From Opitutaceae bacterium EW11 (GTDB taxonomy: Bacteria > Verrucomicrobiota > Verrucomicrobiia > Opitutales > Opitutaceae), in NCBI GenBank assembly GCA_003054665.1, contig QAYY01000001.1, positions 423,501-487,500 on the forward strand: a stretch of 64,000 nucleotides of DNA. Direction: 5' to 3'. The notes under the pieces were generated by a model. It made no database searches. It saw only the letters and a list, made by a program, of their open reading frames with translations, and had not been told where the DNA came from. A program made the position numbers and the translations under genes. Position 1 is the first letter of the stretch, and every line of letters starts with the position of its first letter. Below, piece after piece: positions 43,926 through 59,989 of this stretch.

Positions 43926-44369
43926 CTACGGCTTCGTCGGCGGCGCTTCGTTCAGGATAAGCCAGTAGAGCCCCAGTTGATTCAGGGCGCTGCAGAACTG
44001 CTCAAAGTCCACCGGCTTTCGGATGTAGCTGTTGGCCCCGAGGTCGTAGCTCTTGATGATGTCCTGCTCCTCCTTCGAGGTGGTCAGGATCACGACGGGC
44101 TGCCGCCGGAGCCTCGGGTCGGCCCGGACCTGGCGCAGCACCTCCATGCCGTCCATCTTCGGCAGCTTGAGATCGAGCAGCACCACCGCCGGGAGGGTCT
44201 TCGGGTGCTCCGCGTTCGGCTCCGCCGCCTCGCGGAGGTAAGCCAGCGCCGACACACCATCACCCACGACCACGAGTTCGTTCATGATGTTGTTTCGGCG
44301 GAAGGCGCGCCGGGCCAGCCGCACGTCGTCTTCGCTGTCTTCTACGAGGAGGATGGGTTTTGTGTTCAT
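43926..44369 (-). CDS. Rcp1-like single-domain response regulator
   Basis: A 147-residue receiver domain: LVEDSEDD (Asp11, Asp14/15), phosphoacceptor Asp66 in VVLLDLKLPKMDG, switch Thr in ILTTSKEE and Lys118 in YIRKPVDF. The long loop between strand 2 and strand 3 (EAAEPNAEHPKTL) and the LKLPKMDG motif are typical of phytochrome-type regulators (Rcp1 family), which dimerise and have no output domain. Its ATG overlaps the stop of the propeller kinase gene (ATGA), so it is co-translated with its likely kinase. Confidence 0.93.
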   Translation of the reverse strand: MNTKPILLVEDSEDDVRLARRAFRRNNIMNELVVVGDGVSALAYLREAAEPNAEHPKTLPAVVLLDLKLPKMDGMEVLRQVRADPRLRRQPVVILTTSKEEQDIIKSYDLGANSYIRKPVDFEQFCSALNQLGLYWLILNEAPPTKP

Positions 44370-47300
44370 GAGAGGCTTTGGGTTGGATCTGGAAGGGTGA
44401 AATAGAAGGTGGCGCCGGCGTCCGGGCGGCTCTCCGCCGACACATGGCCGCCGTGCCGGTGGATGATGCGCTGCACGGTCGCGAGTCCGATGCCCGTGCC
44501 CGGAAATTCGGCCGAGGTGTGAAATCGCTGGAACGCGCCGAACAGCTTCTGCGCATAGGTCATGTCGAAACCCGCGCCGTTATCCCGGACGAAAAAACTG
44601 CGCGTTCCGTCGCGTTCGACCGCTCCGAACTCGATTCGCGAAATCGCGCGTTTGCCGGAAAACTTGGCCGCGTTTCCCAGCAGATTCTGGAAGGCGACGT
44701 GGAGCAGCCTCGCGTCGCCGTTCGCCACCAGTCCCGGCTGGATGGCAAATTCCATCCGCTGCTCGGGATTGGCGTCCTTCAGCTCCTCCGCGACTTTTTC
44801 AGCAAGCTCGCTGAGATTGACGGGGCCGCGCTGCAGTTCGTCTCGGGAGACGCGCGCGAGATTGAGCAGGTCGTCGATCAGCTGCCCCATCCGCTGGCTC
44901 GCTCCGCGGATGCGCATGAGACTGTCCCGGCCCTCCTCGTCGAGCCTGTCGGCGTAGTCCTCGAGCAACACCCGGCTGAATCCATCCATGCTGCGCAGCG
45001 GTGCGCGCAGATCGTGCGATACGGAATAGCTGAACGACTCCAGCTCCTTCAGCGCCGTCGCGAGCTGCGAGGTGCGGTTCGCGACGCGCACTTCCAATTG
45101 CTGATTGAGCTCCCGAAGCTCCTGGGCCGCGCGGGCCCGTTCCTCGGCCCGCTCGCGCTCGGTCGCCAATTCGCGCTGGCGCTGCGCCTCGCGCGCCCGG
45201 GCCGACGAAACCGCCCAGCCCACCGCCGTCGTCGTTCCGAGCAGCAGCAGGAGCGCGCCGCCCCGGAACCAGTTTGTCCTCCACCACGGCGGGACCACCT
45301 CCAGATCGAGCGACACGCCGGAGCGGTTCCAGACGCCGTCGTTGTTGGCCGCCTGCACACGGAGCCGATAGCGGCCCGGGTCGAGATTCGTGAAGGTCGT
45401 GCGATGCTCCGGGCCGAGGTCGCGCCATTCGCTGTCGAATCCCTCCAGCTTCAGACGATAGCGGGTTCGCGCGCTCGACCGATAGCTCAGGGCCGCGAAA
45501 TCGAATCCAATAACCGAATACTTCCAGGGAATCGCCAGGCGGTCTGTTTCGGAAATGCTGCGGCGCAGCGGCGATCCGCCCGCCGCAGGTGTCACCGCGC
45601 GATTGAAGACCTCGAGGCTGGTGAGCACGACGGGAGGAGGCTTGGAGTCGACGGGCAGCGCCCGGGGATTGAACCGGACAAAGCCTTGAGTGCTGCCAAA
45701 GAGAAAATCGCCGTCCTTGAGCCGCAATCGCGCGTGGGGATTGAACTGGCTCCCGGGCAGGCCGTTGCTCTCGTCGAACACCTTCACCTGGCGCGAGTGC
45801 GGCTCGAAACGGACCAAGCCGCGATTTGATCCGATCCACAGGGCGCCCTCGTCGTCCTGGAGGATCCCGCGCAGGACATCGCTCGGAAGTCCGTCTCGCA
45901 TGCGGAAGTTCTCGCACGTTTCCGTCGCGGGATCGAGACGGTTGAGTCCCCCACCTTCCGTGGTGGCCCAGATCGCGCGGTCCCGGTCTTCCAGCAGATC
46001 GAAGATCCAATAGTTGTTCAGCGTTCCCGGTTCGCCCGGCTTGGTTTGAAAACGACGCCACGACTGGGTCGCCGAATCGAACCGGGCCAGACCTTTGGCC
46101 GTGCCGATCCAGAGCGCGCCGGCGCGGTCGACGTACAGCGCGGAAACGATATCGTCGTTGATCGAACGGGGGTCCCGCGGATCGTGCCGAAAATGCTCAA
46201 AGCCGTCCGTCTCGGGGTCGTAGCGTTCGACGCCGCCCCCGATGGTTCCGATCCAGAGCCGGCCCTCGCCGTCCTCCGCAATCGACCAGACGTGGGAATC
46301 GCTCAGGGAGGTCGGGTCGCCCGGGCGCGGCAAGTAGCGGCGAAAGGTGCCGGTCTCCGGATCGAAGCGGTTCAAGCCGCCGGCCCAGGTGCCCACCCAC
46401 AAGACGCCCCGACGATCCCGGTACAGCGCCACGGCCGCCTTGGCGCCGAGACTGCCGGGATCGTGAGGCGAGTAGTTGTAGCTCGTCCAGCGCCCGGTTT
46501 CAGCCGACCAGTGGTTCAGCCCGCCGTTGTCCGTGCCCACCCACAGGCCCCCGGACGGCTCCTCGAGAAACGAAAGCACCTGATCGTCCGACATCGTGTT
46601 GGGGACACCGGGCACGGTGACAAAACCCTGGAACGCGGCGGCGGATCGATCGAAGTGGCTGATTCCAGCGGGGAAATGGCCGATCCACAGGTCGCCGGCG
46701 CCGTCCTTGAACAGGGCGCGAACGGCGTCGGAGACCAGCGAGTTTCCCGCGTAGCGAGACCGCCGGTGCTGCGTGAACCTTCGTTTTTCCGGCTCGAAGC
46801 GGAGGAAGCCTCCGCCGTCGGTGCCGATCCAGACGGTGCCGTCGTCGTCCGCGATCAAGGCCGTCACCGTCTGGTTCGGAAGGATCTCGCGATCGTCGCC
46901 AACCAGCGGATACCGCTCGAACCGTTCGCGCGCGGAATCGAGGCGGCAGAGTCCGCCGTCGGTCCCCACCCAGAGGTTTCCCTGACGATCCTCCGCGATG
47001 GCCGAGACGCGGTTGTCCACCAGCGCGTGCGGGTCGTCGGGTTTCGCCCCGTACAGGCGGAACGTTCGCGAACCGGGATCGAGCCGGGCGAGCCCGCTGT
47101 TCCCCGTTCCCACCCAGACGACGCCGCTCCGGTCCCGGAACAGGCAGCGCACCCACGCGTCGCCCGGGACCAGCCGCTCACAGCGCTTCGTTTTCGGATC
47201 GAAAAGGTGGAGTCCGCCGCGGCGCGTTCCGACCCAGAGCGTGCCGTCCGGATTCCGGAGGAGGCATTGCGTCGTGTCGTCGCCCAGCGTCGTCGGGTCC

Positions 47301-47722
47301 GGCTCCCGATGCTGATAGTGGCTGAACCGTTCTGTGTCCCGGTGCCAGAGATCGAGGCCTCCCTCCGTCGCCATCCAGAGATTGCCGTCGCCGTCCTCCT
47401 CGATGCCCAGCACCGCGCCGTTTGCGATGCTCTCCGGATCTCCCGGATCGGGCCGAAACACTCTGAACTCGTGGCCGTCGAAACGCGCCACGCCGTCGGC
47501 AGTCCCAAACCACAGGAAACCGCGGCTGTCCTCCATGCCACAATACACCACGGCGGCGGGCAGTCCGTCGCGCGGGGTGAAACGCTGAAAGTTGAGGTGA
47601 TCGTCGGAAGGAGCGCCGTCGGCGTCCGGACGCGGCGCCGCGCAGGCCAGAGCCAGAACCCACCGGAGCGCCCGCAGAGGGTTCCCTCCCATGCCCGTCG
47701 TGGTTTCAAGATGGGAGGTCAT
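44366..47722 (-). CDS. Membrane sensor kinase with two-component regulator propeller
   Basis: A 1,118-residue kinase from MTSHLETTTGM; the frame extends further, but this start shares one base with the TonB receptor stop (TGATG). After a weak signal segment come two seven-bladed-type propellers made of Reg_prop repeats (many W.GT.GGL..., LWVGTRRGGLHLFD, ALWIGTAKGLARFD), about 45-740; a Y_Y_Y domain (RYRLRVQAANNDGVW) near 790; one transmembrane helix (about 821-838); a coiled coil; HisKA with FSYSVSHDLRAPLRSM (His903); and an ATPase domain (NLLGNAAKFS, DNGAGF, GTGIGLATV). It resembles Bacteroides HTCS proteins but lacks their receiver and AraC parts; the separate regulator downstream replaces them. 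It probably senses a periplasmic glycan or other TonB substrate. Confidence 0.92.
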   Translation of the reverse strand: MTSHLETTTGMGGNPLRALRWVLALACAAPRPDADGAPSDDHLNFQRFTPRDGLPAAVVYCGMEDSRGFLWFGTADGVARFDGHEFRVFRPDPGDPESIANGAVLGIEEDGDGNLWMATEGGLDLWHRDTERFSHYQHREPDPTTLGDDTTQCLLRNPDGTLWVGTRRGGLHLFDPKTKRCERLVPGDAWVRCLFRDRSGVVWVGTGNSGLARLDPGSRTFRLYGAKPDDPHALVDNRVSAIAEDRQGNLWVGTDGGLCRLDSARERFERYPLVGDDREILPNQTVTALIADDDGTVWIGTDGGGFLRFEPEKRRFTQHRRSRYAGNSLVSDAVRALFKDGAGDLWIGHFPAGISHFDRSAAAFQGFVTVPGVPNTMSDDQVLSFLEEPSGGLWVGTDNGGLNHWSAETGRWTSYNYSPHDPGSLGAKAAVALYRDRRGVLWVGTWAGGLNRFDPETGTFRRYLPRPGDPTSLSDSHVWSIAEDGEGRLWIGTIGGGVERYDPETDGFEHFRHDPRDPRSINDDIVSALYVDRAGALWIGTAKGLARFDSATQSWRRFQTKPGEPGTLNNYWIFDLLEDRDRAIWATTEGGGLNRLDPATETCENFRMRDGLPSDVLRGILQDDEGALWIGSNRGLVRFEPHSRQVKVFDESNGLPGSQFNPHARLRLKDGDFLFGSTQGFVRFNPRALPVDSKPPPVVLTSLEVFNRAVTPAAGGSPLRRSISETDRLAIPWKYSVIGFDFAALSYRSSARTRYRLKLEGFDSEWRDLGPEHRTTFTNLDPGRYRLRVQAANNDGVWNRSGVSLDLEVVPPWWRTNWFRGGALLLLLGTTTAVGWAVSSARAREAQRQRELATERERAEERARAAQELRELNQQLEVRVANRTSQLATALKELESFSYSVSHDLRAPLRSMDGFSRVLLEDYADRLDEEGRDSLMRIRGASQRMGQLIDDLLNLARVSRDELQRGPVNLSELAEKVAEELKDANPEQRMEFAIQPGLVANGDARLLHVAFQNLLGNAAKFSGKRAISRIEFGAVERDGTRSFFVRDNGAGFDMTYAQKLFGAFQRFHTSAEFPGTGIGLATVQRIIHRHGGHVSAESRPDAGATFYFTLPDPTQSLS

Positions 47723-50700
47723 CAAAACGTCGTCCCGATTCGGATACTTGCGCTTCGGCCGGGCGCCCACAGAAGCCCGTACCGTTTTTGATCGTCGAGG
47801 AGGTTGTCGATGTTCGCCTGAACGTAGGCGTCGCGCTTCCCGAGCTTGAACTCGTAGTGTGCGAAAACATTCACGGTCCACCGCGCCGGCGTGCTGAGTA
47901 CGATGGCCGTGCCGCTGCTGTCCTTGAGCGCGTCTCCCGCGTGCGTGAAGCCGCTCTCGTATTCCTGGGGTCCCGTGCGGATCGCTCCGCCGCCGATCCG
48001 GAGTCCCTTGGCCCCGAGTTTCGTCAGGCGGTAGCTCGTGAAGAGGCTCCAGGACCATTTCGGGTAGTCCATGCCCTGCGCTCCCGGATAGATGAGCCCC
48101 TTGAACGAGAACGTGGAGGTCCGCGCCTCATCCGAGTACTGCACGTTTTTTCCGTAGAAGCCGGAGAGGCCCCATTGTCCGTTGGGAAACATCCAGGGGG
48201 CCCATCGATCCGCGTTCTGCCCCGGGTAGTCCGGAAACTGCCCGAGCGAGAGGATCTCGTGGTTGTTCTTCTCGAAGCTGAAGAGGATCTGCCAGTCGTC
48301 CGTCGGCGTGACGAGCACCTGCCCGTCCCAGCCGGTGTTGCGGTCTTTCTCGGGCGCGGAAAGCGAGGGATTGTTGGCGAACGAATTCGTGTCCAGGGCG
48401 GCGCTGTTGTAGCCGGTGCCGGCGGGCGCGCTGTTGAAGAACCAGCCCGGCCAGTTGTCGCTGCCCGGATGGGCTTCGCCGGCCGAGCGGCAGTACTGGT
48501 AGACCGCATCCATGTACGCCGCGCCTTCCGGCCGGGACGCGGAGAGCGTGATGTACGCGTTGGTCGGCCCGCCCGCCGCGATCAGACTGGCGAACGCCGC
48601 TTCGCTGATGGCGTTGCCGGAGCGGTCCCAGTAACCGACCGCACCCGCGACTTTCGCCGCCGTCCAGGTGCTCTGGATCGCCTCGCGCTGCGCATTCAGG
48701 CCGTCGGACTGGTAACTCTGCAGCCCGGCGAGGGTGGCGCTCGAACCGGCCGCGCCGGCGGGCACGGAGGAGTATCGAGAGAGGTCGCCCCAATACGCGT
48801 AGTTGTTGTTCCACTGGATCAGCGGCACCGTCGCCCCGGTGTTGTCGGTGTAGGTGTAGCGCAGAGCGGCGTCCGGATTGAGGTCGGTGATGTTGTAGAC
48901 CACCGTCTTTGAAGGATCGAAGCGATGCGTCGCCGTCTGCGGCGCCCACCAGAAGCTGCCGTTCGGCTGGCCCGAGCGGGTGATCCGATAATGCGAGATC
49001 GTGCCGGAGAGACGTCCGCCGAAGAGATCAAACTTGAGGCCGTACTCCTGATTGACCGCCGTGACGGCGTCCATCGGTTTCCCGGTGAGATCGCGGGCGC
49101 CCGAGTAGTTGGGATTCAGTCCCTCGGAGCGCAGCGCGTACAACGAAAGCGCCTTGATCGGCGCGACGCTCACGCCGATCTGGCTGGTCGTGTAGGTTTT
49201 CTGGTCGGGTTCGGAGGAGCTGCTGGCGCCCGAGTCGACCGAGCCGTCCGCATAGTTGTATGCAATATCCTGAGACGAAGCGCCGTTGCGGTCGCGTCGC
49301 ACGCCGCCGAGCACCGTGATCATCCCCTTCAGGAACTTGCCCTCGTAGGCGAGGTAGCCGCCGGTCTCCCTGGCGATCGCCTCGCTCCAATGCCTCGGCT
49401 TCAGCGGAAGCGAGGGGTTTCCGTCGCCCTGGGTGCCGAACCGGAACGGGGTGGAATCCGCGACGCTCTTCCAGTCGTACACCGAGTTGGCGCTGTCGAG
49501 CGTGCGCAGCGCAGTCGTCGTGCGGTCCCTCTCGACGGAAACGCCGAGAAGGAAATTGTGCTTCATCTCCAGCCAGGGACGGCTCTCGAACAGAGGGAGC
49601 TTGTAGCTCAGCTCCGCCCTCCCCTGATGGGCCCGCAACTCCGACTTCGTGTCCGACCAGCTGTACGCCACGATGGAATGCGGGATCGGCGCGGCGGCCC
49701 AGTTCGCATCGGTGTCGCCGCGCAACGCGTCGAGGGGCACGGGGATCAGCGTGCTCCAGAGATTCATCGGCCCGATGTTGTTGCCGATGGAGGCGTTGAC
49801 GTCGCGCGTATCGAAGGTCGCGGACGAGAAGTTGTAGCCGGCGAGAAAATCCAGCCCCCGCGCCAGATGTTGCGTGAGCTTCAGCTCGAGATTTCCCTGG
49901 GTGGATTTCTGAAATGTGTCGGGGCCCGACCAACGCATCGTCCGGAGATGCTCGCCGGGAAACGCCACGAAGCCGGCGTGCTCCTGCCGGCCGTTGTTGC
50001 CCAGGGCATCCGCCCGGGCACGGATGCTCTGGAAGCCGATTCCGGTGTCGCGCGTCCTGCCGAGTTCGGCATCGACCGTGATCTCGGTGTGTTTCCAGGG
50101 ACGCCACGTGACGATGCCCGCCAGCGACGCCTTCCGCGCTCGGTAGTATTCCGTGTAGTCGCCGCTCTGCTGCGCCGCCGCAGTGATCCGGTAGCCCGCA
50201 TGCCCGCCGTCGAAGGGAGCCGTGACGTCGACCGACGCGCGCAACAGATCGTCCGTCCCCGCAACCACCTCGACTGCTTGGGCCGGCTTCGGCAGCGGCG
50301 TCTTCGGCAGGTAATTCACGACGCCGCCGAAATTGCCGATGCCGTAGAGCAGCGCCGCAGGCCCGCGAACCACCTCGATGCGGTCGATGTTCACCGTGTC
50401 CGTCGTCACCTTCCGCCGGAAACCGTCGCGCAGAGAATTCTCCGTCGTGAACCCGCGGATGATCACGACCGTGTCGGACTTGTTCGCGGTCTGCATCTCC
50501 GGGTTATTCACCCCGCCGATATTCTGGTACTGGGAAAAACCGTTGCCTGTGTAGTCGTTCTGCGAACGAAGTTGGATGCCCGAGCTGTACTGCAGCGCCT
50601 GCCGCAGGCTCGTCGCTCCGGTGTCCTTGATGAATTCCGACGTGATCACCTCCACCGCGAGCGGAACGTCCTTGATCGGACTGTCGAGCCGCGTGCCGGA

Positions 50701-50916
50701 CGTCGCGTTGGTGGCCTTGTAGCCCTTGTCTCGACCGGTGGTCACCGCGAACGGGTTCAGGATCACGACACCGTCCTCGTCGCGGTCCGGTTCGTCTGCG
50801 TCCGTCTGTTTTTCCGGACTTCGCGGAGTGTCCTGGGCTGCGACGATTCCCGGCAATCCGGCGACAAGCGCCAGAGAAATCCAGCTTCTGACAACTTTAG
50901 GGTATTGGCTTGTCAT
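47722..50916 (-). CDS. TonB-dependent outer-membrane receptor (siderophore-receptor-like)
   Basis: A 1,064-residue protein with a signal peptide (SWISLALVAGLPGIVAAQ). A TonB-box-like segment (VVILNPFAVTTGRDKGY) is followed by the plug domain (SPIKDVPLAVEVITSEFIKDTGATSLRQAL to VVNYLP, about 75-205), with DRIEVVRGPAALLYG as the typical plug end. The remaining 850 residues form the 22-strand barrel and end in NLLDDQKRYG and a final Phe (RIGTTF). The style is that of siderophore-type receptors expanded in Opitutaceae. It is the first gene of a coupled operon with the propeller kinase, suggesting that substrate binding or import is linked to signalling. The ligand is unknown. Confidence 0.93.
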   Translation of the reverse strand: MTSQYPKVVRSWISLALVAGLPGIVAAQDTPRSPEKQTDADEPDRDEDGVVILNPFAVTTGRDKGYKATNATSGTRLDSPIKDVPLAVEVITSEFIKDTGATSLRQALQYSSGIQLRSQNDYTGNGFSQYQNIGGVNNPEMQTANKSDTVVIIRGFTTENSLRDGFRRKVTTDTVNIDRIEVVRGPAALLYGIGNFGGVVNYLPKTPLPKPAQAVEVVAGTDDLLRASVDVTAPFDGGHAGYRITAAAQQSGDYTEYYRARKASLAGIVTWRPWKHTEITVDAELGRTRDTGIGFQSIRARADALGNNGRQEHAGFVAFPGEHLRTMRWSGPDTFQKSTQGNLELKLTQHLARGLDFLAGYNFSSATFDTRDVNASIGNNIGPMNLWSTLIPVPLDALRGDTDANWAAAPIPHSIVAYSWSDTKSELRAHQGRAELSYKLPLFESRPWLEMKHNFLLGVSVERDRTTTALRTLDSANSVYDWKSVADSTPFRFGTQGDGNPSLPLKPRHWSEAIARETGGYLAYEGKFLKGMITVLGGVRRDRNGASSQDIAYNYADGSVDSGASSSSEPDQKTYTTSQIGVSVAPIKALSLYALRSEGLNPNYSGARDLTGKPMDAVTAVNQEYGLKFDLFGGRLSGTISHYRITRSGQPNGSFWWAPQTATHRFDPSKTVVYNITDLNPDAALRYTYTDNTGATVPLIQWNNNYAYWGDLSRYSSVPAGAAGSSATLAGLQSYQSDGLNAQREAIQSTWTAAKVAGAVGYWDRSGNAISEAAFASLIAAGGPTNAYITLSASRPEGAAYMDAVYQYCRSAGEAHPGSDNWPGWFFNSAPAGTGYNSAALDTNSFANNPSLSAPEKDRNTGWDGQVLVTPTDDWQILFSFEKNNHEILSLGQFPDYPGQNADRWAPWMFPNGQWGLSGFYGKNVQYSDEARTSTFSFKGLIYPGAQGMDYPKWSWSLFTSYRLTKLGAKGLRIGGGAIRTGPQEYESGFTHAGDALKDSSGTAIVLSTPARWTVNVFAHYEFKLGKRDAYVQANIDNLLDDQKRYGLLWAPGRSASIRIGTTF

Positions 50917-51576
50917 ACCTTCTCTGGTGACGGCCTATCCAAAAGGCGCTGCGGGCGGAGAATGTGGGTAAGCATTCACGGGGTGAGCCCAAACGCAGGG
51001 AAAGGGAATAGCGGATAGAGATAACGGCTGCAAGACCTTGCACAGCGAGGTTTGCGAAATTTGTGCGCCCTCGGGGAGTTTTCAGCATTCGCGCCAGCTG
51101 ACTAAGTACCGCTGTTGCCGCCGCATGCGGCGAAGTCGCTCCAGGCAGGACAAAAAACGCGCAGCCCTGCACCATGGTGCCGAAACGGCGCGATGTCCCC
51201 GCGGTGCGTCGGCAGCCTCCGTCGTGTCTGAAAAACGCTGCCGACTGCGCCAGCCGACACCGCCTCTCCGGAACCTCGCAACCGCGATTTGCAGACGCTC
51301 GGGGGCCATCGGAAGCAAAGCGGCGAAGACCCGTATGCATGTTCCGAATACTCCATTTTGATAGGAGAAGTCTGCCTTTTCGCGCAGCCGAAATCGGAGG
51401 TCGGGCGCCGGTTTTCACCCCCGATCGATGGCTGTCAGAAGTGTTAAAAACATCATCGTTCATGCCATTTCTCACCTGGGAACCTCGCTATATGCTGTGC
51501 CGCGTAACGCAGTCCGTCTCCCCCCCCCTACCACACCGACGTACTGAAACTGCCCTAGTCGATTGGAGCACGAACA
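50917..51576. other. 660 bp divergent intergenic region between two TonB receptor genes
   Basis: It holds the promoters of both receptors. The part near 51452-51496 carries the shared promoter element described separately. The stretch 51000-51440 shows GC-rich sequence without a supported gene on either strand. Confidence 0.55.
51452..51496 (+). promoter_or_regulatory. Shared promoter element upstream of the TonB receptor
   Basis: ATCATCGTTCATGCCATT (51452-51469) is followed after 19 bases by the -10-like box TATATGCT (51489-51496), 80 bp before the gene at 51577. The same 18-mer with two changes and the same 19-base spacing occurs at 54695-54739 upstream of the NagB-LmbE gene. A TTAA lies just upstream in both. 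It could be a regulator site overlapping the -35 region. Confidence 0.6.
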
Positions 51577-54216
51577 ATGCACAAGCAGACCTGTCATGAG
51601 CGCGGCTTCCCCGGCCGTCGCATTGCGGGCGCAATGTTAATTGCAGCCCTTTCCGCATCCGCCCAAACGGCACCCGATTCCTCCAGTCCGGAGAAGAAGG
51701 ACGAGGTGATCACGCTGTCGGAATTCACCGTCACCGGTTATCGCGCCAGTCTCGCGAAATCCCTCGAGACGAAACGTGAATCCGCCTCGATCATCGACGT
51801 CATCACGGCGGAAGACGTTGGCAAGTTCCCGGATACCAACATCGCCGAATCGCTTTCCCACCTGACCGGCATCTCCGTCGACCACCAGTTCGGCGAAGGT
51901 GAAAAGGTCAGCATCCTGGGTACGGATCCCGCGCTGAACCGCCTCCTCGTCAACGGCCAGACCATCGCTTCCGGCGACTGGGGTGGCAATCCGACGGACA
52001 CGTCCGGCCGCACGTTCAACTACACGCTGCTCTCGCCGGAGATCATCGGCAGCGTCGAGTTGTACAAGGCCTCCGAGGCCCGCATCGACGAAGGTTCGAT
52101 CGGCGGTACCGTGATCGTGAATACGCGCCGTCCGCTCGACCTCCCGGCGAACACCGTCCGGGCGTCGGCCGGCTACGCGTACAACGACCGCTCCGAAAAG
52201 GGCAACCTGCGCGGCTCCGTCCTCTATAGCTGGAAGTCCAGCGACAAGAAGTTCGGCGCCCTCGCCGCGGTCACGCACGACAAAGAGAACCTCTCCCGCG
52301 CCGGCATCGAATACTGGGGCTTCGGCACGGTGGCCGCCGCTAACAACGCGATGGTGCCGTTCGGCATGAACTCCGCGTACTTCAAGCAGGAGCGTCGCCG
52401 CGACGGCATCCAGGCAGCGCTGCAGTGGAAGCCGATCGATCAGCTCGAGCTGAATCTCACCGGCGTTCACATCAAGGGCGTCTACGACAACTTCAGCCAG
52501 TCGCGCTATGTCGTCCCGGCCTACTGGGGCACGCTCGATTCGTACACGGTGAAGAACGGCTACGTCGTTTCCGGCCACGTCACCGCGAACAACGCGACCG
52601 TCGACGGCGTGACGCTCGTCGGTCCCGCCGCGAATCCGTACGCCGCCAACGGCCAGTACGACACCAACCTTCGCAAGACCACGGTGAAGACGGACGCGAT
52701 CAACCTGCACGGTGATTATCGTCCGGACGACACCTGGCACATCGGCTTCGACGTGGGCCACACCTCGGCCAGCGGCGGCAAGGACCCCGAGTACCTGTTC
52801 TCGCTGATGTTCAACCAGAACTTCAGCTTCGCGTACGACGGTTCGAAGTCCTCGCTGACCTTCGACGATCATGCGGCCGCGACGGATCCCGCAGCCTACC
52901 GCACCCGCAAGACGGGCGACCAGGCAGGCGGCATCGAATACACGAAGACCAAGGACAAGGAAGACTACATCCAGATCGACGCCGATCGTCCGGTCCGCTT
53001 CGGCGCCTTCGACAAGATCCTCTTCGGCACGAAGTACACCGATCACGTCAATCGCCAGGATTCGATCGGCAATCGCATCAACGTGACGGACATCAGGGAC
53101 CTCAGCTCCTTCAGTCCCTCGAACTCCCCCACCGGCCTCTTCGACGGCCTCGGCACCAGCGGCGACACGGCGACCATGGTCGTCCCGACGCAGGATGCGG
53201 TCGTCAAGTACCTGCTCTCCCTCCCGCAGGGCGTGATGGAGGAAAAGAAGGGCCAGGAGTTCTACGTGCGTGAGAAGAACCTCGGCGCCTACGTCCAGGC
53301 CAACTTCTCCAGCACGAACTACCGCGGCAACCTCGGTCTCCGCGTCGCGGATACGACAGAGGAATCGAAGTACTGGAATTACGACGGCAACACCGCCACC
53401 TACACGAAGGTGAAGAAAGACAGCGACTACATGAAGTGGCTGCCGAGCTTCAACTTCACGCTGGATCTCGACAAGGACCTGCTCCTCCGCACCGGCGTCT
53501 CGCAGGTGATCGCCCGCCCGCGCTACAGCGATCTGGCCGGTCACTTCGAGGTGGACAACACCCGCCTCACCGGCGGCGGCGGCAATCCGGACCTCAAGCC
53601 TTACGAGTCGAACAACGTCAACGTCTCGCTCGAGTGGTACCCGAAGAAGTCGAGCCTCTACGCCGTCGAGTTCTTCGCCCGCAACATCAGCAACTACATC
53701 CTCAGCGTCACCGAGGACAAGGTGCTGTTCAACACGGCCACCGGGCAGAACGCCACCTACTCGATCAGCTCTCCGTTCAACGCCGGCACCGCCGTCGTCC
53801 GCGGCGTGGCCCTCACCACCCAGCAGGAACTCGGAGCAGGCTTCGGCATCCAGGCGAACATCACGTTCTCCGACGCCAACACGTCGAACGGCTACAACAT
53901 GCCGTACCTCTCGAAGACCACGTACAACATCATCCCGTACTGGGAGTCGGGACCGTTCGCCGCCCGCGTGAGCTACAGCTGGCGCTCCTCGTTCTTCACC
54001 TCCATCGGCCGCCTGAACTCGCCGCTCTTCGCGGACAGCTACAAGCAGCTCGACGCGTCGTTCTCCTACCAGGTCACGAAGAACATCCAGGTTCAGTTGA
54101 ACGCCACGAACCTCCTCGATTCGACGTACTTCTGGTATTACAAGTACAAATACGCCCCGATGGGCGTGTACAAGAACGGCCGCATGCTGACGGCCAGCGT
54201 CTCGTACAAGTTCTAA
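51577..54216 (+). CDS. TonB-dependent outer-membrane receptor of the amino-sugar locus
   Basis: An 879-residue protein with a signal peptide (RIAGAMLIAALSASAQ). The TonB box region is ITLSEFTVTGYRASLAKSLE. The plug (about 60-190) has SASIIDVITAEDVGKFPDTN, IAESLSHLTGISVD and EGSIGGTVIVNTRRPLDLP, features of the TIGR01782 (Caulobacter-type) receptors, several of which import oligosaccharides such as chitooligosaccharides. The barrel ends NATNLLDSTYFWYY and a final Phe (SVSYKF). A good terminator follows at 54264. The locus behind it encodes GlcNAc catabolism and glycosidases, and its promoter element is shared with the NagB-LmbE gene, so uptake of a GlcNAc-containing glycan is a reasonable inference. 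Confidence 0.93.
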   Translation: MHKQTCHERGFPGRRIAGAMLIAALSASAQTAPDSSSPEKKDEVITLSEFTVTGYRASLAKSLETKRESASIIDVITAEDVGKFPDTNIAESLSHLTGISVDHQFGEGEKVSILGTDPALNRLLVNGQTIASGDWGGNPTDTSGRTFNYTLLSPEIIGSVELYKASEARIDEGSIGGTVIVNTRRPLDLPANTVRASAGYAYNDRSEKGNLRGSVLYSWKSSDKKFGALAAVTHDKENLSRAGIEYWGFGTVAAANNAMVPFGMNSAYFKQERRRDGIQAALQWKPIDQLELNLTGVHIKGVYDNFSQSRYVVPAYWGTLDSYTVKNGYVVSGHVTANNATVDGVTLVGPAANPYAANGQYDTNLRKTTVKTDAINLHGDYRPDDTWHIGFDVGHTSASGGKDPEYLFSLMFNQNFSFAYDGSKSSLTFDDHAAATDPAAYRTRKTGDQAGGIEYTKTKDKEDYIQIDADRPVRFGAFDKILFGTKYTDHVNRQDSIGNRINVTDIRDLSSFSPSNSPTGLFDGLGTSGDTATMVVPTQDAVVKYLLSLPQGVMEEKKGQEFYVREKNLGAYVQANFSSTNYRGNLGLRVADTTEESKYWNYDGNTATYTKVKKDSDYMKWLPSFNFTLDLDKDLLLRTGVSQVIARPRYSDLAGHFEVDNTRLTGGGGNPDLKPYESNNVNVSLEWYPKKSSLYAVEFFARNISNYILSVTEDKVLFNTATGQNATYSISSPFNAGTAVVRGVALTTQQELGAGFGIQANITFSDANTSNGYNMPYLSKTTYNIIPYWESGPFAARVSYSWRSSFFTSIGRLNSPLFADSYKQLDASFSYQVTKNIQVQLNATNLLDSTYFWYYKYKYAPMGVYKNGRMLTASVSYKF

Positions 54217-54263
54217 ACTTATCCAGCCGGACGTCGTCATTCCGTACCGGCTAGGGTTCTAAC

Positions 54264-54302
54264 GAGGTCCGGGTGCTCACGCGCCCGGGCCTCTTTTCTT
54301 TT
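54264..54302 (+). terminator. Rho-independent terminator of the TonB receptor gene
   Basis: Arms GAGGTCCGGG (54264-54273) and CCCGGGCCTC (54284-54293), one mismatch, with a 10-base loop, followed by TTTTCTTTTC. It lies 47 bp past the stop. It separates receptor transcription from the NagB-LmbE genes. Confidence 0.85.
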
Positions 54303-54522
54303 CGGAAGCCGAGGGACGCGGGGGCAGCTGAGAGCGCGGCTGTATCGGCCGCCGTTTTTTCGGGATGAGGTAGGGATGCCCGCCCTCCCGGTATGGCCGG
54401 CCGGCAAGAGTACTTGCCGCTGGCGCGAATCCTCTTCGGCGGCGCACCGGCGCTGCGCTTGCTTTTCCGTCGGCGGGGTGAGGCCCAAGAGCCACGACGA
54501 GGCGCGGCCGGAGCCAAGTGGC

Positions 54523-54552
54523 GTCGCAGGGACGCGCCGCCCCACCCGCAAG
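54523..54552 (-). repeat. 30 bp interspersed intergenic repeat, copy 2 (inverted)
   Basis: It starts GTCGCAGGGACG and ends CACCCGCAAG; the reverse complement differs from 7007-7036 at one position. Confidence 0.7.
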
Positions 54553-54694
54553 CGTGCGGGCTCGGGCAACTTCTCCCGGGCGTGAGCAGTATCCGACTGC
54601 CGGGTACACCTCAGTTCCAGGGAGGCATCTCCCGCGCATTCCGGCCGCCTGAGCCTCCCCTGCCCGAGGGCGGATAATCGGAATTAACAAAAAA

Positions 54695-54739
54695 ATCGTC
54701 GTTTATGCCATTCTGCGTGCAGGGCGTCGGGTTTACTCT
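54695..54739 (+). promoter_or_regulatory. Shared promoter element upstream of the NagB-LmbE gene
   Basis: ATCGTCGTTTATGCCATT (54695-54712), 16 of 18 bases as at 51452-51469, then 19 bases, then the -10-like TTTACTCT (54732-54739), 27 bp before the start at 54767. An A-rich tract precedes it. Confidence 0.6.
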
Positions 54740-54766: not shown

Positions 54767-56716
54767 ATGACGACCACCGACTCCCTGACGCCGTCCCGCT
54801 TCGAGCACATCCCGCTCGCCGTTTTTCCGACCAGCACCGACGCTTCGCGCATGGTGGCACAGGAAGTCGCTGCGCTCATCCGCAGCCGCCAGCGGGAGGG
54901 CCGCTCGGTGGTGCTCGGCCTCGCCACGGGGTCCACCCCCCTCAGCTTCTACGGCGAACTCATCCGGCTGCACCGCGCCGAAAGCCTCAGCTTCAAGAAC
55001 GTCATCACGTTCAATCTCGACGAATACTACGGTCTGAAGCCGGAGCACCCGCAGAGCTACCACCATTTCATGCACACCCATCTGTTCGATCACATCGATG
55101 TGCCCGCCGAGGCCATCCATGTGCCGGACGGCATGGTGCCTGCGAGCCAGCTCGAAAAGTTCTGCCTGGCGTACGAGGAAAAGATCCGCGCCGCCGGCGG
55201 CATCGACTTCCAGATTCTCGGCATCGGACGGACGGGCCACATCGGCTTCAACGAACCCGGAAGCGCCCGCCGCTCCCGCACCCGGTACGTCACCCTCGAT
55301 CCACTCACGCGGCGCGACGCCGCGGGCGATTTCGGCGGTGAGGAAAACACGCCGCGCGCCGCCGTGACCATGGGCGTGCGGACGATCATGGACGCTCGCC
55401 GCGTCGTGCTCATGGCCTGGGGCCAGCACAAGGCCGACATCGTCCGCGACGCCGTCGAAGGGCCGATCACGCCCCAGGTCACCGCCTCGTTTCTTCAGGA
55501 GCACGACCACTGCACATTTGTCCTCGATGCCTCCGCCGCCGGCTCGCTCACGCGCTACCGGACGCCGTGGCTGATCGGAGCGCTGGAGGACCAGGGACTC
55601 GCGTGGGACGAGCGCATGACGCGCCGGGCCATTCTCTGGCTCTCGGAGCAGAAGAAGGCCATCCTGAAGCTGACCGACGACGACTACAACGAGAGCAGCC
55701 TCCAGGATCTGCTCCGTGTCCACGGCTCCGCGTACGAAACGAACCTCGTCGGCTTTTACCAGATGCAGCACACGATCACCGGCTGGCCCGGCGGTCGCGA
55801 CCCGAAGCGCACCAAGCCCGGCGACGCGCCCGTGCGTCCGCTGCGAGGCGGCTCCGCCCAGGTGTTCCCCAAACGCATTCTCATTCTCTCGCCGCACCCG
55901 GACGACGACGTGATTTCGATGGGCGGCACCGTCTGCCGGCTCGTCGAACACGGGCACGAGGTGCACGTCGCCTACCAGGTCTCGGGCGCAAACTCGGTTT
56001 CGGACGAGTCGCTCTGGCGCTCCCTCCTGTTCGCCCGGGGAACGGGCGCGGCCAACTCCGCCGCCGAAGCCTTCTGCTCGACCTTCGAGCAGGGCGACTC
56101 CCCCGCGGCCACGCCGGAGATCATGCAGTGGAAAGGCCTGATCCGCCGAAACGAGGCCACCGCCGCCGCGCGTGTCTGCGGCGTATCCAGCGACCGGCTT
56201 CATTTCCTCGACCTCCCCTTCTATCACGGAACGGATCGCCGCCGCCAACTCGGCGAAGCCGATTTGAAGATCATGGGCGCGCTGCTCGACGAGCTGAAAC
56301 CTCACCTGATTTTCGCGGCCGGCGATCTCGACGATCCGCACGGCACCCATCGCCTCTGCGTGCGCGTCCTTCGCGACGCCCTCGCCCAGCGGATCTCGCA
56401 GGACTGGGCCGCCGCCTCGGAGATCTGGCTGTATCGCGGCGCGTGGGCGGAATGGGACGCCTCGGAAATCGACCTGGCCGTGCCGCTCAGCCCGCAGGAG
56501 GTGCTGCGCCGCCGCCGCGCGATTTTCCGCCACGAAACCCAGAAGGACCAGGCCCTGTTTCTGGGCAACGACCGCCGGGAGTTCTGGCAGCGGAGCGAGG
56601 ACCGCAGCCGCCGGCTCGCCGCGACTTACAACGCCCTCGGTCTCGCCGAATACGAGGCGATCGAGGCGTTCAAACGCTACGCTCCGGCCGACTTCGCCCA
56701 GCAAAAACAGTTTTAG
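54767..56716 (+). CDS. nagB: Glucosamine-6-phosphate deaminase fused to a LmbE/PIG-L deacetylase domain
   Basis: A 649-residue fusion. The N-terminal half is NagB: LGLATGSTPLSFYGEL (phosphate site, about 50-64), TFNLDEYYGL (Asp85-Glu86), GIGRTGHIGFNEPGS (His158). It converts glucosamine-6-phosphate to fructose-6-phosphate and ammonia. The allosteric lid is shortened. After a linker, residues about 370-640 form a PIG-L/LmbE deacetylase: ILSPHPDDDVISMGG (His377, Asp379, Asp380 zinc site) and DLDDPHGTHRLC. The same fusion is known in Bacteroidetes. The deacetylase half may act on an N-acetylated amino sugar before deamination, since no NagA gene is in the window. It is the first gene of a plus-strand run with the ROK-like (51 bp) and PIG-L (10 bp) genes. 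Confidence 0.93.
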   Translation: MTTTDSLTPSRFEHIPLAVFPTSTDASRMVAQEVAALIRSRQREGRSVVLGLATGSTPLSFYGELIRLHRAESLSFKNVITFNLDEYYGLKPEHPQSYHHFMHTHLFDHIDVPAEAIHVPDGMVPASQLEKFCLAYEEKIRAAGGIDFQILGIGRTGHIGFNEPGSARRSRTRYVTLDPLTRRDAAGDFGGEENTPRAAVTMGVRTIMDARRVVLMAWGQHKADIVRDAVEGPITPQVTASFLQEHDHCTFVLDASAAGSLTRYRTPWLIGALEDQGLAWDERMTRRAILWLSEQKKAILKLTDDDYNESSLQDLLRVHGSAYETNLVGFYQMQHTITGWPGGRDPKRTKPGDAPVRPLRGGSAQVFPKRILILSPHPDDDVISMGGTVCRLVEHGHEVHVAYQVSGANSVSDESLWRSLLFARGTGAANSAAEAFCSTFEQGDSPAATPEIMQWKGLIRRNEATAAARVCGVSSDRLHFLDLPFYHGTDRRRQLGEADLKIMGALLDELKPHLIFAAGDLDDPHGTHRLCVRVLRDALAQRISQDWAAASEIWLYRGAWAEWDASEIDLAVPLSPQEVLRRRRAIFRHETQKDQALFLGNDRREFWQRSEDRSRRLAATYNALGLAEYEAIEAFKRYAPADFAQQKQF

Positions 56717-56767: not shown

Positions 56768-58210
56768 ATGACGACCGCAAGCGACGGACAGCTCGTATCA
56801 GCCATGTCGTTACTTCCCCCCAACGTATACCCGGCGCTCGATTCCAGTTTCCTGCCTGCGGTTCTCTGGAACCGCGCCTACAGGAAGATGGTGGAGAGCG
56901 ACCCTCACGCGCGTCCCTTCGCGCTGGTGCTTGGCCGACCGGATGGTTCCCGGAAGGTGCACGAAAGCCGCGTGCTTTCGGCCCAGCATCCAGCTGCATT
57001 GCTCAATGTGACGTACGCTGAACGCCTGCTGAAGTTTCTCCTTTGGCAGAAGGGCGGCTCGCGCGTGGGGGTCTACGGGGCCCCCGAAATCGCCGAAGCG
57101 TTGGCGAAGACCTACAGCCCCAACGGGGCCCGGGCGTTCGACCACCAGTTCATGGGCGAGAAGGTCTACGGCGAACCGTTCAGCGTCCGCGCGATCGACA
57201 AATACGAGCCGGAATTCGAGTCGGATGGCCTGGCGATCGGTCGCAATCTCGACGGCTGCCGCATCGGTTTCGACCTGGGCGGAAGCGACCGCAAAGCCGC
57301 CGCCGTGATCGACGGCGAAGTCGTCTTTTCCGAGGAGATCGCGTGGGACCCGTATTTTCAGTCCGACCCGGCGTACCACATCGAGGGCGTTTTCGATTCG
57401 CTCAAACGCGCTGCGGCGCACCTGCCGCGGGTCGACGCGATCGGAGGAAGCGCCGCGGGCGTGTACGTCAACAACGAGGTGCGGGTCGCATCGTTGTTCC
57501 GCGGCGTGCCGCCGGGCGCGTTCGAGAAACAGATCCGGCCGATGTTCGCCGGACTCAAAGCCCGTTTCGGCGGCGTGCCGTTCGAGGTCGTGAACGACGG
57601 CGAGGTCACGGCGCTCGCGGGCTCGATGTCGCTCCGAGACAACTCCGTGCTCGGCATCTCGATGGGCACGAGCCTCGCCGCCGGCTACGTCACCTCCGCC
57701 GGCCGAATCACCACCTGGCTGAACGAACTCGCCTTTGCGCCGATCGACTATCGCGCCGACGCACCGCGGGACGAATGGTCGGGCGATCTCGGTTGCGGCG
57801 TTCAATACCTTTCCCAACAGGCCGTCGGCCGGCTCGCGGAGAAAGCCGGAATCCAGTTCCCCGCCAAGATGCCGCTACCGGAGCGGCTCCTCTCCGTGCA
57901 GCAGGCGATGAGCGAAGGCGACACCCGCGCGGCGAAGATCTACGAGACGATCGGCGTGTATTTCGGGTATGCGATCGCCCACTACGCCGAGTTCTTCGAT
58001 CTCCGGAGGCTGCTCGTGCTCGGCCGGGTGTCGTCCGGCGAAGGCGGCCGCGTGATCCTCAGCCAGGCGGAAAACGTCCTCGCCCGCGAATTCCCCGAAC
58101 TGGCCGAGACCATCCATCTCCACACCCCCGACGAAAAGAACAAGCGCCACGGCCAGGCGATCGCCGCAGCGAGTTTGCCCATTCTCAAGCAAAACCCCAA
58201 TTGTTCGTAA
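56768..58210 (+). CDS. ROK-family-like sugar kinase
   Basis: A 480-residue protein. The ASKHA/ROK core starts near residue 160: CRIGFDLGGSDRKAAAVIDGEVV (phosphate-1 motif), VDAIGGSAAGVYVNN, VVNDGEVTALAG, and LGISMGTSLAAGYV. The typical ROK zinc motif (CxCGxxGC) is not present; LGCGVQYLSQQAV stands at that place. About 160 N-terminal residues are extra and unassigned. The context (deaminase before, deacetylase after, 10 bp gap) suggests phosphorylation of GlcNAc, glucosamine or mannose. There is no helix-turn-helix domain, so a kinase rather than a repressor is likely. A start at MSLLPPNVYP (56804) is also possible. Confidence 0.85.
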   Translation: MTTASDGQLVSAMSLLPPNVYPALDSSFLPAVLWNRAYRKMVESDPHARPFALVLGRPDGSRKVHESRVLSAQHPAALLNVTYAERLLKFLLWQKGGSRVGVYGAPEIAEALAKTYSPNGARAFDHQFMGEKVYGEPFSVRAIDKYEPEFESDGLAIGRNLDGCRIGFDLGGSDRKAAAVIDGEVVFSEEIAWDPYFQSDPAYHIEGVFDSLKRAAAHLPRVDAIGGSAAGVYVNNEVRVASLFRGVPPGAFEKQIRPMFAGLKARFGGVPFEVVNDGEVTALAGSMSLRDNSVLGISMGTSLAAGYVTSAGRITTWLNELAFAPIDYRADAPRDEWSGDLGCGVQYLSQQAVGRLAEKAGIQFPAKMPLPERLLSVQQAMSEGDTRAAKIYETIGVYFGYAIAHYAEFFDLRRLLVLGRVSSGEGGRVILSQAENVLAREFPELAETIHLHTPDEKNKRHGQAIAAASLPILKQNPNCS

Positions 58211-58220
58211 GCCAGACATC

Positions 58221-59072
58221 ATGAAATTCTCCCATCCAAACGCCGACGTCTTTGTACCAGGATCCGCCGCCACGCCCGCCGCAGCGTTGGCCAGAGTGAC
58301 GCATCTCTGCGTCGCCGCCCATCAGGACGACATTGAAATAATGGCCTACGCCGGCGTCACCGCCGCGCTCGACACCCCCGGAAAAGCCTTCGGCGGCGTG
58401 GTCGTGACGAACGGAGCCGGATCTCCCCGCACCGGAACCTACGCACATCTCACCGACGAAGAGATGCAGAAGGTCCGCCGCGAAGAACAGCGCGCCGCGG
58501 CCCGACTCGGCGGTTATGCCATTCAGATCCAGCTCGCCCACCCAAGCGCCGAGGTGAAGAAGCACGCGCAACCCGACGTCGTGGCCGACCTGGTGAAAAT
58601 CTTCTCCGGCTGCACGCCCGACGTGGTTTACCTCCACAATCCCGCGGACAAGCACGACACCCACGTCGCCGTCCTCGCGCGCTGCGTCGAGGCCCTCCGC
58701 CAGCTGCCGGCCGACCGCGCGCCGAAGCGCGTGCTCGGCTGCGAAGTCTGGCGCGATCTGGACTGGCTCGTCGACGCCGACAAGGTCGCGCTCGATTCAG
58801 GACGCCACCCGGAACTCGCCCCGGAGTTGTTGAAGGTCTTCGACTCGCAGGTCGCCGGCGGAAAACGCTACGACCTCGCGACCCTCGGCCGCCGGTCCGC
58901 CCACGCGACCTTCCACACGTCGCACGCCACCGACAAGCTGACGGGAATCACCTGGGCGGTCGATCTGACGCCCCTGATTCAGAATCCGAAACTCACGCTC
59001 GAAGAATTCACGCTTTCCCACGTCGACCGGCTCCGCTCCGACATCGCGGACCGGCTCCGCAAGGTCGTCTGA
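58221..59072 (+). CDS. PIG-L family deacetylase
   Basis: A 283-residue zinc-dependent N-acetylglucosaminyl-type deacetylase. The metal site is VAAHQDDIEIMAY (His34, Asp36, Asp37) with the third ligand in LHNPADKHDTH. VTNGAGSPRTGTYAHLTDEEM is the substrate-loop part. There is no signal peptide, so it is cytoplasmic. With the LmbE half of the 54767 gene it is the second such domain in the locus; it probably removes acetyl from GlcNAc or a derivative. It starts 10 bp after the ROK-like gene and is surely in its operon. It converges with the AraC gene, 5 bp apart. Confidence 0.92.
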   Translation: MKFSHPNADVFVPGSAATPAAALARVTHLCVAAHQDDIEIMAYAGVTAALDTPGKAFGGVVVTNGAGSPRTGTYAHLTDEEMQKVRREEQRAAARLGGYAIQIQLAHPSAEVKKHAQPDVVADLVKIFSGCTPDVVYLHNPADKHDTHVAVLARCVEALRQLPADRAPKRVLGCEVWRDLDWLVDADKVALDSGRHPELAPELLKVFDSQVAGGKRYDLATLGRRSAHATFHTSHATDKLTGITWAVDLTPLIQNPKLTLEEFTLSHVDRLRSDIADRLRKVV

Positions 59073-59077
59073 GCGGT

Positions 59078-59989
59078 TCACTTGTCCCGATGCAGCGTTC
59101 CTCCATGCCGGTAGGCCATCGGCGAGATGCCGTAGGTCGTCCGGAAGGCCCGGCTGAAACTGAAGATGGAGTTGAACCCGCACTGCTCGGCGATTTCGGA
59201 TACGCGGCACGAACTCAGCCGGAGCAAGCCGCAGGCTTTTTCCATCCGGAGCCGGCGCAAGTGTTTCCCGAGGCTCACCCGGCAGGAGGCGCGGAAGCGC
59301 GCGCGCAAGTGGCTCGAACTGATCCCGAGAAGACGCGCCATCTCCTTCACGCTCGGCATCTCGCCTTTGCGCTGGGCGAGCTGATTCACCTGGGTGATCA
59401 GCGACTCGGGCGTGGAAGGCGTGCTCTGCCGGCGCTGAATCGGCGTCGCCTGTTCGATGCGCGCGAGCAGCAGCGCAAGAGTCAGGATGGAGAGATTCGG
59501 GTCGTTGGGCGCGAGGTAGCAGTTCACCAGTTCGGCGGCGAGGCGTTCGATCACCGGCGATATCTCGAAGGGCCGGAAACGCAGCGCCTCGAGCGCGCGG
59601 TTGTCGGCCATCTCGAAGGTCACGAACAGCCACGTGAGTTTTTCCTGCTGCGGCTGCATGTAGTCGTGAAATTGAAACGGCAGCACGAGCAGACCTTCGC
59701 CCGGGTGCAGCCGCACGGTGCGATCGTCGACGCACACCGTCACCGCCGTCTCGAACGCCATGATCAACACGTGCCGGTGATGCAGCGCGCGGCCTTGCTG
59801 GGGTCGGTTGAGATCCGTCGCGGAACTCCGGCAGAAACAAACGACGTTGTCCGGCAAGGCGAGGTCCACCGCCTGCTGCCCGTGAAGCTGCAGCATCGGC
59901 GACGGAAGCATGCGCACCAGGCGGGCCGTCGAAAGATTTCGTTGCGATCCAACCTTCGCTTCAGGAGCGGAAACGGACGTATCGTTCAT
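59078..59989 (-). CDS. AraC family transcriptional regulator of the glycan locus
   Basis: A 303-residue regulator. The N-terminal part is a cupin-like sensor (MLQLHGQQAVDLALPDNVVC, RTVRLHPGEGLLVLPFQFHDYMQ, about 28-125). The C-terminal double helix-turn-helix is at about 215-298: MPSVKEMARLLGISSSHLRARFRASCRVSLGKHLRRLRM, then SCRVSEIAEQCGFNSIFSFSRAFRTTYGISPMAYR. It is divergent from the GH3 gene with a 95 bp gap that carries an inverted repeat (60003-60033). It probably activates the glycosidase genes in response to a sugar. Confidence 0.93.
   Translation of the reverse strand: MNDTSVSAPEAKVGSQRNLSTARLVRMLPSPMLQLHGQQAVDLALPDNVVCFCRSSATDLNRPQQGRALHHRHVLIMAFETAVTVCVDDRTVRLHPGEGLLVLPFQFHDYMQPQQEKLTWLFVTFEMADNRALEALRFRPFEISPVIERLAAELVNCYLAPNDPNLSILTLALLLARIEQATPIQRRQSTPSTPESLITQVNQLAQRKGEMPSVKEMARLLGISSSHLRARFRASCRVSLGKHLRRLRMEKACGLLRLSSCRVSEIAEQCGFNSIFSFSRAFRTTYGISPMAYRHGGTLHRDK

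Follow-up and report, generated by a model that had tools for sequence, protein, structure and literature searches.

A predicted operator shared by amino-sugar genes

In Escherichia coli the genes for chitobiose and N-acetylglucosamine (GlcNAc) are under the control of the AraC-type regulator ChbR, which is linked to a GlcNAc-related sugar and acts together with the ROK protein NagC. The passages of PMC4514859 that deal with the promoter PmtlE of Pseudomonas fluorescens describe sugar-induced activation by the AraC/XylS-type protein MtlR, whose operator, at least 37 bp long, lies upstream of the -35 and contains two similar 15-bp blocks with direct repeats (-72 to -58 and -50 to -36, hence 22 bp apart by coordinates). 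Likewise, in the hybrid two-component system (HTCS) regulons of Bacteroides, which control glycan-utilisation genes, direct repeats that recur every 21 bp (16+5, 12+9) are predicted, as presented in the relevant portion of PMC3878776. Here we describe a candidate switch of comparable build in a window of 64,000 nucleotides (the whole stretch of DNA analysed, from contig QAYY01000001.1 of Opitutaceae bacterium EW11), in which an 18-bp motif precedes two genes, one for a TonB-dependent receptor and one for NagB-LmbE, a glucosamine-6-phosphate deaminase fused to a PIG-L/LmbE deacetylase domain. Comparison with related sequences indicates that the motif forms the promoter-proximal half of a predicted 37-bp operator, very probably one belonging to the AraC-family protein encoded at 59078-59989(-) of the window. 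The best reading of the system is an amino-sugar regulon under a class-II activator of the AraC type, a type of switch that is already familiar.

The two copies of the motif lie in intergenic regions, at 51452-51469(+) (ATCATCGTTCATGCCATT) and 54695-54712(+) (ATCGTCGTTTATGCCATT), and are the same at 16 of 18 positions, just as an earlier note on this DNA had recorded. With up to three mismatches the window contains three matches against 0.03 expected, and none of 100 shuffles reaches three. Across the whole genome (6,396,474 bases) there are three matches with up to two mismatches, all on one contig and one strand and spanning less than 18 kb, and none for a reversed control pattern. The additional copy (C11:492917, equivalent to window position 69417 and hence beyond the window end; L009:7918-7935) is about 18 kb from the first; it follows a sialidase-like gene, named by eye from its translation, and directly precedes the gene of a GH20 beta-N-acetylhexosaminidase (PF00728, 319 bits). 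The earlier note had proposed that many random copies outside promoters would speak against a common control element; the genome-wide search it had called for found this single extra copy instead. Allowing three mismatches raises the genome count to 10, against one for the control. Across 200 genomes of the family the motif was found with up to two mismatches in 98, against 10 for the reversed control (counted from the table), but we do not rely on this count because strings that recur, ACCGTCGTGTATGCCATT among them, inflate it, and some of these are probably coding.

To define the element more fully we used its counterparts in related genomes. A search with NagB-LmbE recovered 105 matches in 100 of the 200 genomes (E <=1e-100), and the 61 matches next after the window's own gene, minus that of G059, provided 60 loci, 59 of them in other genomes and one a second copy in this genome. 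Up to 400 bases were read upstream of each gene. Forty of these regions, with at most five mismatches to the motif and 45 bases before it, were aligned, and 20 were dropped, one of them (L066) solely because its contig starts there. This anchoring favours the proximal half of the element; the upstream half and the -10 played no part in the selection. The 40 sites, with an effective number of 19.4 after sequence weighting, show conservation reaching well past the 18-bp motif, over a 37-bp operator, TGGCATTTTTGTTAAAAACATCGTCGTTTCTGCCATT, followed by a conserved -10. Columns of the operator hold 1.26 bits on average and those of the -10 hold 1.16, against 0.22 in the spacer, 0.16 upstream and 0.17 downstream. 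Within the operator CGTCGTTTCTGCCA repeats TGGCATTTTTGTTA in the same direction at a distance of 21 bp: when the proximal half is held fixed, a direct repeat at offset 21 scores 11.7 bits, whereas the next offset scores 4.0 and the best inverted arrangement 7.0.

The position of this operator relative to the promoter is nearly invariant. In a search over positions 10 to 32 after the motif, the -10 (TANNNT) lies 21 bases on in 37 of the 40 relatives' sites, 20 in two and 18 in one, and in this genome's three sites the distances are 21, 21 and 20 bp. The -10-like boxes that the earlier note had placed exactly 19 bases on (TATATG and TTTACT) are therefore 2 bp off the better candidates. A 17-bp spacer leads back from the -10 to a poor -35 that starts right after the second half-site, where the relatives' columns read mostly TTTNT. 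Hence, the operator abuts or overlaps the -35 at a fixed distance from the -10, as in class-II control of a sigma-70 promoter. The shared promoter element of the earlier note is thus present but better described as the promoter-proximal half-site plus the -35. The TTAA that it had seen above the motif is found upstream of both copies, albeit at unequal spacing (four bases before the 51452 copy, seven before the 54695 copy), and in relatives forms the end of another, upstream half-site (GTTAAAAAC).

A model of the 40 sites (R1), which includes none from this genome, recovers the same three sites here: before the receptor gene (C11:474933-474996, 37.9 bits, E 8.4e-9), before nagB-lmbE (C11:478188-478239, 22.9 bits, E 4.1e-4) and before the GH20 gene (22.6 bits, E 4.9e-4). 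No fourth site was found in the 6.4-Mb genome up to E 10 among the best 150 of 902 first-look candidates that were scored, a depth at which very weak sites could be missed. The third motif match of the window, at 58506, has three mismatches, lies within a PIG-L gene and is not matched by R1; it is regarded as background, as are the other three-mismatch matches in the genome. R1 recovers none of the seven matches beyond the three sites up to E 10. In the family as a whole R1 finds the element in 72 of the 200 genomes at E <=0.1.

Scored against the relatives' half-site matrix, the upstream and proximal halves reach 13.7 and 15.7 bits at the receptor, 10.9 and 15.8 at GH20, and -1.8 and 20.8 at nagB-lmbE; the nagB-lmbE operator of this genome therefore consists of one strong and one degenerate half. 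At the receptor, the predicted upstream half-site (TGTCAGAAGTGTTA, 51433-51446(+)) stands 21 bp upstream of the proximal half-site within the motif (51454-51467, CATCGTTCATGCCA), which is followed by a predicted weak -35, TTTCTC (51468-51473(+)), placed by the 17-bp spacer from the conserved -10, and by the predicted -10 itself, TATGCT (51491-51496(+)). At nagB-lmbE, the degenerate upstream position (AATCGGAATTAACA, 54676-54689(+)) is followed by the proximal half-site (54697-54710, CGTCGTTTATGCCA), a predicted weak -35, TTCTGC (54711-54716(+)), and, 17 bp further, a predicted -10, TACTCT (54734-54739(+)).

The AraC-family protein and its association with the operator

The proposed activator is a protein of 303 residues with a C-terminal DNA-binding domain of two helix-turn-helix units (PF12833, 71.8 bits, cut-off 33.6, E 5.6e-20; PF00165, 58.6 bits, cut-off 26.6). 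Its structure model (mean predicted local distance difference test, pLDDT, 88.3) retrieves AraC-type domains in Foldseek, e.g. 3lsg_A (TMt 0.83, root-mean-square deviation, rmsd, 2.0). Its N-terminal part has no Pfam match, but the modelled fold resembles E. coli AraC (2arc/1xja) and the lactose sensor BgaR at TMt about 0.6, with a high rmsd in some of the alignments, which points to a ligand-binding and dimerisation domain. Normalised to the query, the TM scores are low (0.3 to 0.4); this would be expected if the two domains are placed differently or if one alone has been solved. No kinase domain was found in domain profile searches. The protein thus shares the AraC-type DNA-binding domain of the HTCS regulators but differs from them in that they are membrane sensor kinases, as the same portion of PMC3878776 states. 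The geometry of its predicted operator is like that of the MtlR operator, although sequence, sugar (mannitol) and phylum differ, and the MtlR site was shown by mutation, electrophoretic mobility shift assay and footprint, whereas the operator here is predicted (passages on PmtlE in PMC4514859). With E. coli AraC at araI1-araI2 it shares the family, and it would share two proximal half-sites and a promoter-proximal half-site that recruits RNA polymerase; arabinose as the ligand, the CRP site within the element and the half-site sequence set the E. coli system apart (PMC4760080, in its account of araI).

The association of operator and regulator is seen at several levels. A relative of the AraC protein (at least 129 bits) is encoded in the fetched stretch at 36 of the 60 nagB-lmbE loci. 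Every one of the 36 carries an operator scoring 20 bits or more, against eight of the 24 loci that lack such a relative. Thirty of the 36 have araC divergent from nagB-lmbE and within 320 bp of it, and in each of these 30 the operator is inside the intervening region. Among the eight loci with an operator only, three belong to genomes that have the AraC gene elsewhere (G147, G175 and G187) and one is L066, at its contig start. Neither AraC relative nor operator accompanies this genome's second NagB-LmbE gene or the corresponding genes of G013, G016 and G093, which all belong to the near clade; this second gene (L088; C21:78994-80919) is 72% identical to that of the window. At the level of whole genomes (AraC at >=250 bits, R1 site at E <=1e-3), 47 of the 200 have both, four AraC alone, eight the site alone and 141 neither (Fisher 1.6e-32, uncorrected for phylogeny). 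The four with AraC alone carry weaker sites, just above the cut in G122 and G040 and at 33 and 22 bits by the matrix in G163 and G006.

Named records, which overlap with the 200 genomes, allow the regulator to be separated from the gene it adjoins. Where the AraC protein is at least 46% identical to that of the window, the operator is present in 50 of 52 loci, including some without a NagB-LmbE match in the locus (L211, L219, L222, L228, L233). Where it is at most 41% identical, the operator is present in one of 27 (L271, where it is 2.4 kb from the araC gene rather than adjoining it), although 14 of the 27 hold a NagB-LmbE match. The sites therefore track this AraC lineage rather than nagB-lmbE.

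In relatives with distant AraC proteins (L158-L164, L165-L168 and L170) other sequences are conserved at the corresponding place between araC and nagB-lmbE, namely GATCGGAAATATCAAA...GATC and GCAAAG...GGAAAG. A 21-bp repeat is visible by eye in two distant lineages, but we do not claim this period for them because an unbiased offset scan, in which 21 ranks first in the window's lineage, ranks it only third and fourth there.

Weighing the alternatives

Several observations weigh against the pairing of regulator and operator proposed here. The araC gene is not divergent from any target in this genome, its own promoter has no site of 10 bits or more, and the upstream half-site of this genome's nagB-lmbE operator is unrecognisable by sequence. 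Two of the three own sites reach 31 and 34 bits by the matrix, compared with mostly 40 to 63 for the relatives' nagB-lmbE sites. Forty of the upstream regions tested had also served to train the matrix, though without use of the araC gene, and the related genomes are not independent. Statistical support for the direct repeat is moderate, since 32 of 2000 permutations of the operator columns yield an equally good repeat at any offset (0.016). Finally, of the eight genomes with a site but no strong AraC match some are incomplete, yet G061 is 96% complete. G061 and G196 belong to genus g19; in both a strong operator precedes nagB-lmbE (L105, L106), and neither has an AraC match at E <=1e-20.

The alternative that survives best keeps this pairing but has the same AraC protein mainly repress, directly or by looping in the absence of inducer, with activation as a minor effect. 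AraC-family proteins are capable of both, and the E. coli protein forms loops that join sites far apart (PMC4760080, in its account of looping); here the two operators in the window are 3.2 kb apart, and in several genera a pair about 1 kb apart flanks araC. Nevertheless, the operator stands directly upstream of a poor -35 at a near-invariant distance from the -10, the class-II position, and leaves the -10 and the start uncovered, which makes mainly repressive action unlikely.

Regulators of GlcNAc use elsewhere are often of the ROK, GntR or LacI types, and it could be such a dyad-binding protein, or another AraC paralogue, that uses the sites, the neighbouring AraC being a linked passenger. 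In keeping with this, B. thetaiotaomicron NanR, for sialic acid and GlcNAc, is listed as a ROK protein in the portion of PMC3878776 concerned, the outer ends of the operator (TGGCA/TGCCA) are inverted to each other, and there are the eight genomes with the site but no strong AraC match. However, only these 5-bp arms are clearly inverted, and the direct repeat outscores any dyad. The ROK-like gene of the operon is itself a sub-threshold match. The sites accompany this AraC lineage even in loci without a nagB-lmbE match, and none adjoins an AraC protein of at most 41% identity. We consider this alternative distinctly improbable; the LacI/ROK regulators suggested by the earlier note gain no support from the build of the operator or from the operon, no search for such proteins elsewhere in the genome having been made.

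The nearly fixed distance to the -10 would also suit a promoter of an alternative sigma factor of the extracytoplasmic function (ECF) type, with the motif as part of it rather than of an operator, but the conserved block of 37 bp extends far beyond a -35 element, the TANNNT -10 with its 17-bp spacer fits sigma-70, and the sites accompany an araC gene, leaving this very improbable. The location of two sites in one gene cluster and the third within 18 kb might point to coincidence or to a piece of promoter copied not long ago. Both can practically be dismissed: the reversed control gives no match at two mismatches, the three sites of this genome have flanks and spacers that look unrelated by eye, and the element is conserved across genomes.

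Targets, neighbouring genes and the proposed regulon

The receptor gene (51577-54216(+)) is of the TIGR01782 type (672.9 bits, cut-off 310), and nagB-lmbE (54767-56716(+); NF002557, 902.8 bits, cut-off 384; PF01182 and PF02585) is closely followed by genes for a ROK-like protein (56768-58210(+); PF00480, 20.8 bits, under the cut-off of 22.9) and a PIG-L/LmbE-type deacetylase (58221-59072(+); PF02585, 62.6 bits), which probably share its transcript; the araC gene is convergent with the end of this operon. Twenty proteins encoded beside sites, one being this genome's GH20, were picked by hand and tested against Pfam. The 19 from relatives comprise four GH20 enzymes (L178, L183, L188, L107), nine TonB receptors, a fusion of a beta-lactamase with NamZ, an exo-N-acetylmuramidase (L192:2778-5204(+), downstream of a 27.0-bit site), and an acetyl-CoA synthetase (L187:1234-3186(-), downstream of a 44.6-bit site). 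Thus, all three sites of this genome and 15 of the 19 proteins fit an amino-sugar regulon. Four do not, and count against it: two match no family (L185, L078), and a 3-keto-disaccharide hydrolase and a ferrochelatase are not obviously connected with amino sugars, although the weak 28.4-bit site before the ferrochelatase gene (L182) may be due to chance. The NamZ and acetyl-CoA synthetase targets suggest links to cell-wall amino sugars and to acetate activation, the synthetase presumably consuming acetate freed by deacetylation.

Three of the nine receptor genes (L070, L073, L181) are downstream of a forward site, and six (L071 twice, L092, L094, L097, L195) read away from a reverse-oriented one. 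In several genera the region that separates the end of araC from a large gene holds a second operator, in reverse orientation (e.g. L095:11037-11073(-), L092:6807-6843(+), L097:6965-7001(+)). Seventeen such sites were read out, mostly 135-192 bp before the start of the large gene, which encodes a TonB receptor in all six cases tested with Pfam; a TTGGAC-like box recurs further downstream of them. These sites may reflect control in either orientation, or looping. More tentatively, and with the odds against it, the divergent AraC/nagB-lmbE pair might be an ancient unit within Verrucomicrobiota, whose regulator and operator have repeatedly changed their sequences together while the place before the same gene was kept. 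This draws on the other conserved sequences that accompany the distant AraC proteins (about 30-34% identity) of Pelagicoccus-type and genus g48 genomes and, in several genera, on the reverse operator before the TonB receptor, about 1 kb off across araC, with which a single dimer would be able to loop the two promoters.

Just downstream of the window L009:6803-14935 has a row of sialidase-like, GH20, major facilitator superfamily and GH92-like genes, of which GH20 alone is confirmed by Pfam; the sugar-porter-like gene and then the GH92-like gene behind GH20 were named by eye. The row is probably the continuation of a glycan utilisation cluster in the window. On the other side, a sensor kinase gene at 44366-48058(-), with Reg_prop and Y_Y_Y repeats, HisKA and HATPase domains and no AraC-type domain found by Pfam, adjoins a second TonB receptor gene (47722-50916(-)).

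The control of uptake and catabolism by one regulator, as put forward in the earlier note, is supported by the GH20 site, by the fact that relatives retain the element next to genes for NagB-LmbE, GH20 and TonB receptors, and by its co-occurrence with relatives of the AraC protein. The sites, their geometry, conservation and targets and the co-occurrence come directly from the sequences; as for how the class-II activator would work, we infer binding, a predominance of activation over repression and an inducer derived from a GlcNAc-like sugar. An AraC dimer with a GlcNAc-derived ligand would bind two direct half-sites (consensus YGKCRTTTYTGYYA) 21 bp apart, and, the downstream one abutting the poor -35, would contact RNA polymerase and activate a promoter whose -10 (TANNNT) is 21 bp after the motif. 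Three promoters would be turned on in this way, those of the TonB receptor, of the nagB-lmbE/ROK-like/PIG-L operon and of GH20 about 18 kb off. Release of GlcNAc or N-acetylgalactosamine (GalNAc) by GH20, outer-membrane uptake by the receptor, and deacetylation and deamination by the products of the NagB-LmbE operon would consequently rise together. The open-licence full-text literature, judged by titles and the starts of abstracts, yielded no account of such a regulon in these bacteria. Regulator, operator and targets form a unit that can be tested as a whole for amino-sugar use in Opitutaceae and their relatives, and the site matrix can call further targets in other genomes.

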